This document shows positions 10,198 through 39,270 of a DNA stretch of 64,000 nt, one piece after another. Position 1 is the first letter of the stretch; the number at the start of each line of letters is the position of its first letter. Made by a program: the position numbers and the translations under genes. The notes under the pieces were generated by a model. That model was given only the letters and a program-made list of their open reading frames with translations. It was not told where the DNA came from and searched no databases. The stretch comes from Pseudomonas capeferrum (GTDB lineage: Bacteria > Pseudomonadota > Gammaproteobacteria > Pseudomonadales > Pseudomonadaceae), in NCBI RefSeq assembly GCF_013523055.1, contig NZ_JAAMQM010000028.1:1-64000 (forward strand), in the 5' to 3' direction.

Positions 10198-11760
10198 GTG
10201 AGCCAAGCCTTGATCACCGCGCTGCAGAATCCCGCTGTTTATCCGCACCCCGTCAACGGCTTCCAGCTGATCGAGACGCATATTTCCTGGGTCCTGCTCA
10301 CTGGCGAGTACGCCTACAAGATCAAGAAACCGATGAACTTCGGCTTTCTCGACTTCACCGAGCTGAGCCAGCGAGAACATTTCTGCAACGAAGAGCTACG
10401 CCTCAACCAGCGCTTGACCGACGGTCTCTACCTGCAAGTGCTGCCGATCACCGGTAGCCCGGATGCCCCTTGCCTCGGTGGAGCGGGCGAAGCGATCGAA
10501 TATGCCCTGCAAATGCGCCAGTTCCCCCAGGACCAGATGCTCAGCACCTTGCAGGCCAACGGTGAGCTGACCGCAGGCCATATCGACCAGATGGCTCGAC
10601 AGATTGCCGAGTTCCACCTTGAGGCCCCCAAGGTCGCTTTCGATCATCCCCTGGGTACCCCGGAAAGTGTCATGGCGCCAGTGGAGCAGAACTTCGAGCA
10701 AATCCGCCCGTTCCTCAGCGACAGCGCCGACCTGCAGCAGCTGGACAACCTGCAAGCGTGGGCACGCAGCAGCTTCGAACGCCTGCACGGCCTGTTCGAA
10801 GCGCGCAAGGCACAAGGCTTCATTCGCGAATGCCATGGCGATATTCATCTGGGCAACGCGACCCTGATCGACGGTCAAGTAGTGATTTTCGACTGCATCG
10901 AGTTCAACGAGCCGTTCCGCCTGACCGATGTCTACGCCGACACGGCCTTCCTGGCCATGGACCTGGAAGATCGCGGCCTGAAGTGCCTGTCCCGGCGTTT
11001 CATCAGCCAGTACCTGGAACTGACTGGCGACTATGAAGGCCTGCAACTGCTCAACTTCTACAAGGCCTACCGTGCCCTGGTCCGCGCCAAGGTCGCGTTG
11101 TTCAGCCTGCCCACCGATGCCGATGGCGTTCAGCGCGCCACCACCCTGCGTACTTATCGCAACTACGCCAACCTGGCGGAAAGCTACAGTGCGATTCCCT
11201 CGCGCCTGCTGGCAATCACCCATGGCGTTTCGGCAACCGGCAAGAGCCACGTCGCCATGCGCCTGGTCGAGGCCATCGGCGCGATCCGTTTGCGCTCGGA
11301 TGTCGAACGCAAGCGTCTGCATGGTGAGCAGCAGGCCGAGAATGTCGGCCAGTTGCAAGCCGGCATCTACGATGCCAAGACAAGCGCAGCGACCTATGCC
11401 CGTCTTCACGAGTTGGCGGAAGTCATCCTGCGGGCCGGTTTCCCGGTCGTGGTCGATGCCACCTACCTGCAACGCGAGCAGCGCCAGGCCGCGGCGCAAG
11501 TAGCCCGCGAGACTGGCGTTCCGTTCCTCATCCTCGACTGCAACGCCCCTGACGCCGTGATCGCCAGCTGGCTGGCGCAGCGGCAGGCGGACAACAACGA
11601 TCCCTCCGACGCAACCTTGGAAGTGGTGAAGGCACAGCAAGCGAACCGCGAGCCTCTGGATGATCAGGAGCTCAGGGACAGCAAACGGGTCGAAACCAAC
11701 GAAGGCAGCAGCATGGACCAACTGATCGAGCAGATCCGTCAGCGCCTGCCGGGGCTCTGA
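10198..11760 (+). CDS. phosphotransferase-like / P-loop ATPase fusion protein of unknown substrate
   Basis: This 520-residue cytosolic protein has two modules. The N-terminal half resembles aminoglycoside/choline-type phosphotransferases, with the catalytic loop CHGDIHLGN near residues 212-220 and a metal-binding FDCIEF about 15 residues later. The C-terminal half has a Walker A-like motif GVSATGKS (about 341-348) followed by SDVERKR, as in AAA_33-type small-molecule kinases. It starts with GTG at 10198, after a GGATC-type weak ribosome-binding site. The pairing of two kinase folds is a known but uncharacterised architecture; substrate and role cannot be read from sequence, and antibiotic resistance should not be assumed. 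Confidence 0.8.
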   Translation: MSQALITALQNPAVYPHPVNGFQLIETHISWVLLTGEYAYKIKKPMNFGFLDFTELSQREHFCNEELRLNQRLTDGLYLQVLPITGSPDAPCLGGAGEAIEYALQMRQFPQDQMLSTLQANGELTAGHIDQMARQIAEFHLEAPKVAFDHPLGTPESVMAPVEQNFEQIRPFLSDSADLQQLDNLQAWARSSFERLHGLFEARKAQGFIRECHGDIHLGNATLIDGQVVIFDCIEFNEPFRLTDVYADTAFLAMDLEDRGLKCLSRRFISQYLELTGDYEGLQLLNFYKAYRALVRAKVALFSLPTDADGVQRATTLRTYRNYANLAESYSAIPSRLLAITHGVSATGKSHVAMRLVEAIGAIRLRSDVERKRLHGEQQAENVGQLQAGIYDAKTSAATYARLHELAEVILRAGFPVVVDATYLQREQRQAAAQVARETGVPFLILDCNAPDAVIASWLAQRQADNNDPSDATLEVVKAQQANREPLDDQELRDSKRVETNEGSSMDQLIEQIRQRLPGL

Positions 11761-23930: not shown

Positions 23931-24005
23931 GAACGCGACGTTTTTTAACCGAGCTCAGCTCTCGGAAAAACGGCAAATCCTTGATTTTACTGGATTTTCT
24001 AAAGT

Positions 24006-24021
24006 TGGCACGGCACCTGCT
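24006..24021 (+). promoter_or_regulatory. sigma-54 (-24/-12) promoter of crcZ
   Basis: TGGCAC (24006-24011) and TGCT (24018-24021) place GG and GC exactly ten bases apart, matching the sigma-54 consensus. Transcription should start about 12 bases after the GC, near 24032. Confidence 0.88.
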
Positions 24022-36365: not shown

Positions 36366-36722
36366 TTATTCGGCTTTCAGGCCGTCAGCCGATACGGCTT
36401 GGACGCCTTTGATTTTCTTGGTGATGGCAATTGCCATTTCTTTCTGGGATGCGGTGACTGCTACGTCGGAAGACAGGGATACCACACCTTTGTTGGTCTC
36501 GACCTTGATGTCAGTACCTGGAATACCTTTTTCGGTGACCAGGTCGGCCTTGACCTTGGTGGTGATCCAAGTGTCGGAAGTATCTTCTTTGGCCTTGGTC
36601 ATCTCGCCGGCGGCCAGCGTCATTGGAGCCTGGGACTGATTCGCTTGTTGGGCGAATGCGACGTTAGCCATGGTCATGGTCAGAGCGGTAGCAGTAGCGG
36701 CAGCAATGGCGAACTTCTTCAT
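36366..36722 (-). CDS. periplasmic BON-domain protein (OsmY-like)
   Basis: This 118-residue secreted protein has a Sec signal peptide (1-23, cleavage near AFA-QQ) and one BON domain (about 47-118: TKVKADLVTEKGIPGTDIKVETNKGVVSLSSDV). BON proteins such as OsmY act in envelope stress by binding membranes. The ATG at 36722 is chosen because AGGAG lies nine bases upstream; an in-frame GTG three codons earlier is less likely. Upstream is a -24/-12 promoter-like sequence and paired direct repeats, unusual for this gene type. Confidence 0.88.
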   Translation of the reverse strand: MKKFAIAAATATALTMTMANVAFAQQANQSQAPMTLAAGEMTKAKEDTSDTWITTKVKADLVTEKGIPGTDIKVETNKGVVSLSSDVAVTASQKEMAIAITKKIKGVQAVSADGLKAE

Positions 36723-36786
36723 ACAAAACACTCCTGGTTTACGATAGGGCTGAGCCGATGTAACTGGCTGCAGATGTAAGGAGTGT

Positions 36787-36802
36787 TGCAGGGCCTGTGC
36801 CA
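36787..36802 (-). promoter_or_regulatory. sigma-54-type promoter of the BON gene
   Basis: The minus strand reads TGGCAC (36797-36802) and TGCA (36787-36790), with GG and GC exactly ten bases apart. It matches the sigma-54 consensus about as well as the crcZ promoter does. The start would be near 36776, leaving a 54-base leader. Confidence 0.7.
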
Positions 36803-36868
36803 GCTTTTTAACAACCTAAAAATCGTTAAAAATCAAAGGCTTACTAGAAATGACAATTTCTTGAATCG

Positions 36869-36914
36869 TGCATTTTGCATGTCGGCACAAATTACTGCAT
36901 GCAAGATGCATGTC
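36869..36914 (-). promoter_or_regulatory. paired direct repeats, candidate activator sites for the BON gene
   Basis: Two 15-base direct repeats, TGCATTTTGCATGTC (36869-36883) and TGCAAGATGCATGTC (36900-36914), start 31 bases apart, three helical turns. Each contains inverted TGCA parts. They lie about 70-115 bases upstream of the -24/-12 element, where a sigma-54 activator would bind, with an A/T-rich stretch between. The activator is unknown. Confidence 0.55.
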
Positions 36915-37005
36915 CACGGGCTTTTCACGCCAAATAAAAAAGGACCCCGTAGGGTAATGCCAGTCAGTCAAGGCCCACGATCTGCAATTGGGGCTGCTTC
37001 GCATC

Positions 37006-37033
37006 CCTTCGCGGGCAAGCCCGCTCCCACAAG
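37006..37033 (+). repeat. REP element, left copy
   Basis: This unit, with the palindromic core GCGGGCAAGCCCGC, resembles the P. putida-type REP sequence. It forms the inner end of the left arm of the inverted repeat. Confidence 0.75.
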
Positions 37034-37063
37034 TTGAGCGCCGAATTCAGGAACTGCGCACTT

Positions 37064-37091
37064 CTTGTGGGAGCGGGCTTGCCCGCGAAGG
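37064..37091 (-). repeat. REP element, right copy (inverted)
   Basis: This is an exact inverted copy of the 37006-37033 element and forms the inner end of the right arm. Paired inverted REP units are the usual mobile form, spread by REP-associated transposases; no such gene is in the window. Confidence 0.75.
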
Positions 37092-37164
37092 GGCGCGAAG
37101 CAGCCCCATTGGCCTTAACTGACAAGCATTACCCCACAGGGTCCTTTCTTCTAACCTGTCTCGC

Positions 37165-39270
37165 TTAGACGCCAGAGGCCTTGGCCGCGGCGACGTCCTT
37201 GATCGACAGCTTGATACGACCGCGGTTGTCCACATCCAGTACCAGGACTTCGACTTCCTGACCTTCCTTGAGGATATCGGTCACTTTCTCTACACGCGCA
37301 TCGCTGAGCATGGAGATGTGCACCAGACCGTCCTTGCCAGGCAGGATGTTGACGAAAGCGCCGAAGTCGACGATACGCTCTACCTTGCCGACGTAGATCT
37401 TGCCGATCTCGGCTTCCGCAGTGATGCCCAGGACGCGCTGACGAGCTGCCTCGGCCGCTTCCTTGGTTTCACCGAAGATCTTGATCGAGCCGTCGTCTTC
37501 GATGTCGATCGAAGCCTTGGTCTCTTCGCAGATGGCGCGAATGGTAGCGCCGCCTTTGCCGATGACGTCACGGATCTTGTCGGTGTCGATCTTCATCGCC
37601 AGCATGGTCGGTGCGTTGGCCGACAGCTCGGTGCGCGACTGGGCAATGATCTGGTTCATCTGCCCGAGGATGTTCAGGCGAGCTTCCAGGGCCTGGCCCA
37701 GGGCGATCTCCATGATCTCTTCGGTGATGCCGTTGATCTTGATGTCCATCTGCAGCGCGGTAACGCCTTTCGCGGTACCGGCTACCTTGAAGTCCATGTC
37801 GCCCAGGTGGTCTTCGTCACCCAGGATGTCGGTCAGGATCGCGAACTTGTCGCCTTCCTTGACCAGGCCCATGGCGATACCGGCTACCGGCGCCTTCATC
37901 GGCACACCAGCGTCCATCAGGGCCAGCGATGCACCACAGACCGAGGCCATGGAGCTGGAACCGTTGGATTCGGTGATTTCCGATACCACGCGAATGGTGT
38001 ACGGGAACACGTCGGCGGCAGGCAGCATGGCCTGGACCGAACGACGCGCCAGACGACCGTGACCGATTTCACGACGACCGGCACCGCCCATGCGACCACA
38101 CTCGCCCACCGAGAACGGAGGGAAATTGTAGTGCAGCATGAAGGGGTCTTTCTTCTCGCCTTCAAGGGTGTCGAGCAGCTGTGCGTCACGGGCAGTACCC
38201 AGGGTCGCAACGACCAGGGCCTGAGTCTCGCCACGGGTGAACAGCGCCGAACCGTGAGTCTTGGGCAGGACACCGACTTCGATGTTCAGCGGACGCACGG
38301 TCTTGGTGTCACGACCGTCGATACGTGGCTTGCCGTTGACGATGTTCTCACGAACGGTACGGTATTCGATTTCGCCGAAGATCTCTTTGACTTCGCTGGC
38401 CGATGGCTGACCTTCCTCGCCGGAGAACTTGCCAATCGCCTGGTCGCGCAGCTCGCCCAGACGCGCGTAACGATCAGCCTTGAGGGTGATGGTGTAGGCC
38501 TGGGAAACGGCTTCGCCAACTTCGGCGCGGATGGCATTGAGCAGCTCGCTGTTGGCCGCGGCAGGTTTCCAGTCCCAGGTCGGCTTGGCGGCTTCGGCAG
38601 CCAGTTCCTTGACTGCTTTGATGACGGACTGGAACTCGTCGTGGGCGAACAGGACGGCGCCCAGCATCTGGTCTTCGGTCAGCTCCTTGGCTTCCGACTC
38701 GACCATCAGCACGGCGGTCTCGGTACCGGCCACGACCATGTCCAGGCTCGAAGCCTGCAGCTGTTCGTAGGTCGGGTTGAGCAGGTAGCCGGTGCTCTCG
38801 TGGAAGGCAACGCGGGCAGCGCCGATCGGGCCTTCGAAAGGAATGCCGGAGATGGCCAGGGCGGCCGAGGTACCGATCATCGCTGCGATGTCCGGATCGG
38901 TCTTCTTACTGGTGGAAACCACGGTGCAGACGACCTGCACTTCGTTCATGAACCCTTCCGGGAACAGAGGACGGATCGGACGGTCGATCAGGCGCGAGGT
39001 CAGGGTCTCTTTCTCGGAAGGACGGCCTTCGCGCTTGAAGAAACCGCCAGGGATCTTGCCCGCGGCGTAGGTCTTTTCCTGGTAGTGAACGGACAGGGGG
39101 AAGAAACCCTTGCCTGGATCGGCTTGCTTGGCACCGACCACGGTCACCAGCACGGTGACATCGTTATCGACGGTGACCAGCACGGCGCCGGATGCCTGGC
39201 GGGCGATGCGGCCCGTCTCGAGAGTAACGGTCGATTGACCGAACTGGAATGTCTTGATTACCGGGTTCAC
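37165..39270 (-). CDS. pnp: polynucleotide phosphorylase
   Basis: This 701-residue 3'-5' exoribonuclease degrades RNA by phosphorolysis and is a degradosome component. Two RNase PH domains flank a helical linker. The second carries [18 protein letters not shown]-type residues and the catalytic Asp region of [21 protein letters not shown] domain (about 553-615, [13 protein letters not shown]) and an S1 domain (about 620-690, [26 protein letters not shown]) bind RNA. It follows rpsO, with a stem-loop between them that may be the usual autoregulation site. Confidence 0.97.

Follow-up and report, generated by a model that had tools for sequence, protein, structure and literature searches.

The gene for a small BON-domain (OsmY-like) protein is preceded by a conserved, sigma-54-type promoter with paired putative activator sites, an assignment well supported by sequence comparison. 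The best-supported activator, and most likely the correct one, is AlgB, the NtrC-type partner of the kinase KinB. It is very likely that this promoter, with AlgB as its activator, places the BON gene in an AlgB/sigma-54 regulon that extends across the genus and whose products are mostly small proteins of envelope or stress type. From these comparisons we infer binding by AlgB, dependence on RpoN, activation rather than repression, and a stress signal, which may be envelope stress.

The BON Gene and Its Promoter

The window, i.e., the whole 64,000-nucleotide stretch of DNA that was analysed, contains the BON gene on the minus strand at 36366..36722. It encodes a protein of 118 aa and is the gene presumably controlled by the promoter described here. 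The reading frame as listed begins at an upstream GTG, and an ATG is located at 36722. The product matched PF04972 (E 2.2e-13, 50.7 bits, cut-off 27) through one domain covering residues 49–113, its N-terminus was judged by eye to resemble a signal peptide, and matches to it at E ≤ 1e-3 were found in 198 of 199 genomes of the genus. Escherichia coli OsmY contains two BON domains and is linked to RpoS. The gene studied here is like osmY in specifying an apparently exported BON-domain protein, export being judged from the N-terminus, but differs in having a single BON domain and a sigma-54 promoter. We take its orthologue in P. putida KT2440 to be PP_4707, the gene that presumably adjoins pnp there. 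One published account includes PP_4707 among stress-related genes and gives it as overexpressed in solid medium, adding “water subsaturation, unpublished” (PMC6922523). The P. protegens mutation “osmY -104G>A,” described in a root-evolution study (PMC8262913), was left out of the argument, as the identity of that gene with the BON gene could not be demonstrated from the account given.

An exact GG-N10-GC element, TGGCACAGGCCCTGC, occupies 36788–36802 on the minus strand as a -24/-12 element, and 65 bases separate it from the ATG of the BON gene, precisely as the original prediction had placed it. Three further elements lie upstream on the same strand. An IHF-like site, TAAGCCTTTGATT, which that prediction did not list, is found at 36831–36843 and matches the sequence YAANNNNTTGATW, which we take to be the IHF consensus and used for scoring. 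Two putative activator boxes of the form TGCA-N3-TGCA follow, the near box, TGCAAAATGCA, at 36869–36879 and the far box, TGCATCTTGCA, at 36900–36910, so that the order on the minus strand is far box, near box, IHF-like site, sigma-54 element and BON start codon. The boxes had been noticed as a pair of 15-base direct repeats, TGCATTTTGCATGTC (36869–36883) and TGCAAGATGCATGTC (36900–36914), which are the plus-strand reading of both boxes. The coordinates and the 31-bp spacing of these repeats were borne out, but the GTC end of the 15-mer is not conserved, and the conserved unit is the near-palindromic TGCA-N3-TGCA. The full sigma-54 consensus TGGCACG-N4-TTGC had four matches in the source genome (labeled G000 in the genus comparison), none of them at the BON promoter, and a reversed control also gave four.

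A terminator scan of 36600–37200 found none. The region between pnp and the BON gene includes a very long, near-perfect inverted repeat at 36920–37165 (fold -185.5 kcal/mol, z -17.9), which looks like a pnp terminator stem enclosing a REP-like GGGAGCGGGCTTGCCCGCGAAGGG pair.

Conservation of the BON Promoter

Taken singly, boxes and sigma-54-like elements were unremarkable in the window, with two found versus 1.94 expected and three versus 1.17 expected, respectively, while IHF-like sites were in excess (three versus 0.47 expected). The box pair was found once in the window and in none of 100 shuffles.

Conservation was assessed over 300 upstream bases, counted from the start, in a set of 81 promoters, consisting of the window and the best 80 of at least 332 confirmed loci in relatives. 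TGGCA-N8-GC was present and the near box was an exact TGCA-N3-TGCA in all 81, and the far box had no mismatch in 35 and one mismatch in 46. A lack of conservation of the repeats had been named as grounds for abandoning the original prediction, and the TGCA-N3-TGCA boxes within them are retained in every promoter of the set with at most one mismatch each. The two boxes are spaced 31 bp apart in 79 promoters and 32 bp apart in two, and the distance from the near box to TGGCA is 65 bp in seven, 66 bp in 50 and 67 bp in 24. The IHF-like site matched without mismatch in 53, with one mismatch in 24 and with two in four; a site of this kind is a frequent, though not an invariable, component of sigma-54-dependent promoters. 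The bases between these conserved blocks are mostly far more variable in the alignment. We regard the conservation across promoters as the decisive evidence that the arrangement seen in the sequence is real.

Recurrence of the Promoter in the Genus

A genome-wide search for the repeat, as the original prediction had recommended, revealed a second instance in the source genome. Apart from the BON locus and a tandem array, two exact boxes 8–40 bp apart occur there only at C22:84386-84420, where they precede a DUF3509 gene with a 66-bp gap as at the BON gene, an exact IHF consensus and TGGCACAGTCGCTGC. The excluded array, at C2:124892-125105 (L115), consists of about thirty 7-bp units (TGCAAGC, TGCAAAG and TGCAAGG) that exactly match the box spacing; it is possibly a decoy or a simple repeat. 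Because the box pair identified only the BON and DUF3509 loci in this genome, it was rejected as a signature of the regulon, and one exact box plus promoter was adopted as the search pattern. A narrower box, TTGCANNWTGCAYGA, was too strict as a search motif, with no occurrence in the source genome and presence in eight of 16 genomes.

The one-box pattern recovered a genus-wide set. In its loose form, box-N50-80-TGGCA-N8-GC, it gave 142 matches distributed over 36 of 38 genomes, versus six for the reversed pattern. The strict form, which requires TTGA in between, matched in 178 of 199 genomes, and its reversed pattern had two matches across all 199. TTGA is part of the IHF-like site, so that the frequency of this site among the strict matches is partly built in; the 81 BON promoters were collected without this requirement. 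The four strict matches in the source genome precede the BON gene, the DUF3509 gene, a hemerythrin-domain gene and a gene for a 62-aa small membrane-type protein.

The loci that were fetched yielded 78 promoter lines, from which three duplicates, five apparently spurious lines (incorrectly spaced and lacking an IHF-like site) and one good promoter lacking a credible gene (L185, minus strand, near 10842) were removed to give a catalogue of 69. Gene classes were assigned by N-terminus, with Pfam run on ten proteins, and on this basis the downstream genes encode DUF3509 proteins (20), a membrane protein of about 300 aa without a Pfam match (14), small membrane-type proteins of 62–78 aa (10), long (8) and short (3) BON proteins, hemerythrin (3), DUF1328 (3) and DUF2383 (1) proteins, proteins of about 94 aa adjoining algB (2) and other small proteins (5). 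The occurrence of the same architecture before DUF3509, hemerythrin, membrane-protein, long BON and DUF1328 genes therefore appears to mark a regulon.

Two of these loci deserve separate mention. L194:2279-3184 encodes an example of the membrane-type protein of about 300 aa (GVSWGAIFAGAAAAAALSL...), which has no Pfam match and recurs downstream of such promoters. At L183:2908-4060 in the source genome, a nucleotide-sugar dehydrogenase gene (PF03721), distinct from the gene called algD below, is oriented divergently from the hemerythrin promoter, and owing to this arrangement the intergenic region may serve both genes.

AlgB as the Candidate Activator

In G012, G014, G041, G064, G078 and G113, the sites are grouped around two paired genes, one encoding an NtrC-type regulator of about 450 aa and the other a kinase of about 600 aa. 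The orthologue of this regulator in the source genome, C8:115701-117044, is 448 aa in length and 85% identical, the next activator being 44% identical, and a gene for a 592-aa kinase is found behind it. This kinase is presumably KinB, and the names used for neighboring genes are likewise our assumption; the name AlgB for C8:115701-117044 rests on residues and gene order. Its product carries D59, K181, R186 and a GAFTGA motif, which are also the residues named for AlgB of P. aeruginosa in the accounts consulted (PMC6932827; PMC9431422). The 25 families displayed for two relatives included no NCBIfam AlgB model. The source genome resembles the KinB–AlgB system of P. aeruginosa in having an orthologous 448-aa regulator with the same key residues together with a kinase gene. 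The original prediction was right that the activator is not among the genes of the window; it had anticipated a new or little described protein, and the activator is probably the known protein AlgB.

The promoter co-occurs with AlgB. At a threshold of E ≤ 1e-120, AlgB was absent from eight of the 199 genomes, none of which has a strict site, versus 178 of the 191 with AlgB (Fisher 3.8e-9, uncorrected for relatedness). Both this value and the other Fisher value of the analysis, 1.7e-18, overstate the case, because the genomes are related and the AlgB-less ones may have a common ancestry. The AcoR-like protein of G079, which has no AlgB, is 84% identical to that of the source genome, much like the protein in many AlgB-bearing genomes, and this suggests that AlgB has been lost more than once. 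BON protein matches in the eight AlgB-less genomes were weak or absent (E 2.1e-12 or worse), and they were just as weak in G069, G082 and G187, which have AlgB. A single loose match, lacking an IHF-like site, occurs in one AlgB-less genome, G194.

The algB locus itself points in the same direction. In 32 of 40 algB loci, the divergent side of the gene carries, within 1.35 kb, a box with at most one mismatch together with an IHF-like site and a sigma-54 element, versus none of 57 loci at other activators. The 40 algB loci are spread over the genus and the 57 control loci come from four genomes, 27 of them from G000 and G014, both of which bear sites; more sequence and both strands were scanned for the controls.

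Several results count against AlgB. Strict sites are absent from 13 AlgB-bearing genomes, although G010, G065 and G078, which were checked with the loose pattern, do match. None of the 40 algB-linked loci has an exact box, all of the matches there having one mismatch, and the standard arrangement was not found at the algB locus of the source genome, where a three-BON gene divergent from algB has a sigma-54-like element instead. The product of this gene (L213:5252-6082) is 276 aa long and has three BON domains; many other genomes carry, beside algB, a gene for a small protein of about 94 aa.

The upstream region of algD, which we take to be C95:118078 in the source genome, lent no support either. 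No conserved box was found there in 30 loci of the genus, none of which was assigned to P. aeruginosa; exact boxes were present in two, near the start codon. One-mismatch boxes are scattered upstream of algD, with four loci sharing one at about -308 and the source genome having three, one of them at -656. AlgB has been reported to bind upstream of algD in P. aeruginosa, according to the descriptions available (PMC10418997; PMC6979010), and there it is also described as a repressor of biofilm formation (PMC6932827). In Azotobacter vinelandii, an algB insertion is described as having left alginate yield unaltered, and for this reason the control of algD may itself vary.

Alternative Explanations

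It is unlikely, though not negligibly so, that the sigma-54 promoter is driven by another enhancer-binding protein, such as CbrB, which is encoded in the window, and that the link to algB is indirect. The source genome has 18 strong activators (PF00158), so that other candidates exist, and the algD test was negative for AlgB boxes. Against this, ten of the 18 could be paired by reciprocal best hit with a protein of G014, a small, site-bearing genome. Neither G138 nor G194, both devoid of strict sites, has a close orthologue of AlgB or of an AcoR-like protein, and these two are the only such cases among the ten (a 42% reciprocal hit of the AcoR-like protein in G138 was taken as too distant). 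CbrB-like and FleQ-like proteins and five other activators have reciprocal best hits in both of these genomes. The AcoR-like candidate then fails the 199-genome profile: it is found in 159 genomes and missing from 40. Three genomes that lack both AlgB and strict sites (G079, G093 and G123) carry it, and 17 of the 20 genomes listed as lacking it keep strict sites. The recurrence of the architecture at algB and not at other activator loci also argues for AlgB.

CbrB had already been doubted in the original prediction, and this doubt is supported, since CbrB-like orthologues 84% and 86% identical persist in G138 and G194, respectively, where strict sites are absent. PP_4707 was not found when the main text of a CbrB ChIP-seq paper was searched for the term. 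Downstream of the cbrB-like gene in the window, an IHF-like site (23974–23986) and a sigma-54 element, TGGCACGGCACCTGC (24006–24020), are located as expected for the gene that we take to be crcZ. Promoters regulated by CbrB in P. putida (crcZ, crcY and PP2810) are like the BON promoter in that upstream sites are followed by an IHF site and then by GG-N10-GC (PMC6296734). They differ in that the boxes here are near-palindromic, whereas CbrB subsites were described in the same account as non-palindromic and without a restricted consensus, and in that the CbrB-like orthologue persists where the boxes are gone.

It is quite improbable that the TGCA boxes are the target of a regulator that is not a sigma-54 activator, with the sigma-54 activator itself binding at another place or working from solution. 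A simple near-palindrome such as TGCA-N3-TGCA could be bound by many helix-turn-helix proteins. However, the BON-promoter consensus contains no other comparable conserved block upstream of the IHF-like site, and the distance from box to TGGCA is 64–67 bp in 64 of the 69 catalogued promoters, 55 bp in three (about one turn less) and 73 bp in two, when the loose pattern would have admitted gaps of 50–80 bp. A chance match, in which GG-N10-GC and the repeats are functionless and an ordinary promoter transcribes the gene, is scarcely credible: single elements do occur near chance frequency in the window, but the pair was not reproduced by shuffling, the near box is invariant, no sigma-70-type promoter-like site was found in 36600–37200 (0.4 expected), and conservation already contradicts such a reading.

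Proposed Mechanism and Relation to Known Systems

With AlgB as the preferred activator, its active form would occupy both TGCA-N3-TGCA boxes, which at a spacing of 31 bp would lie on one face of the helix. IHF would bend the DNA between the boxes and the sigma-54 element, allowing the AlgB ATPase to remodel the RpoN-polymerase and bring about opening at the -24/-12 element 65–67 bp downstream. KinB/AlgB is counted as part of the AlgU regulon in a review (PMC10418997), and algB was listed at 5.2-fold under an inhibitor of lipoprotein transport, a compound whose effect was called AlgU dependent (PMC7685553). Because of these two observations, envelope stress could reach sigma-54 genes in two steps, from AlgU to AlgB and from AlgB to its targets. 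The proposed regulon is like the envelope-stress regulon of AlgU (sigma-22) in that the types of product overlap, and differs from it in sigma factor and promoter.

The association of AlgB with sigma-54 is not new as such, because a review calls the effect of AlgB on algD RpoN dependent (PMC4064291). AlgB carries the machinery for sigma-54 activation, and the literature that was found spells out no direct sigma-54 promoter fired by it. As described in the sources consulted, KinB–AlgB of P. aeruginosa is known for algD and for repression of biofilm formation (PMC6932827; PMC10418997), and the present system differs in that the region upstream of algD has no conserved boxes. No report of an AlgB regulon comprising BON, DUF3509 and hemerythrin genes was found in the open-licence literature searched, and the novelty of a regulon based on TGCA-N3-TGCA is provisional; an atlas of P. 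aeruginosa binding motifs may include one for AlgB (PMC8041468).

Implications for Pseudomonas Biology

We consider it reasonably likely that AlgB serves, across the genus, mainly as a sigma-54 activator dedicated to a small regulon of stress type, acting via TGCA-N3-TGCA, and that the control of algD in P. aeruginosa is a side branch. The proposed members of this regulon are BON proteins, DUF3509, hemerythrin and DUF1328 proteins, the membrane protein of about 300 aa and the small membrane-type proteins. The analysis yields a DNA motif that can be tested, a promoter architecture with defined elements and a small set of candidate targets; most of the Pseudomonas genomes compared contain one strict site or more. 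It suggests a possible route by which stress may reach sigma-54 promoters rather than those of RpoS or AlgU, and several targets of unknown function would gain a common regulatory context.
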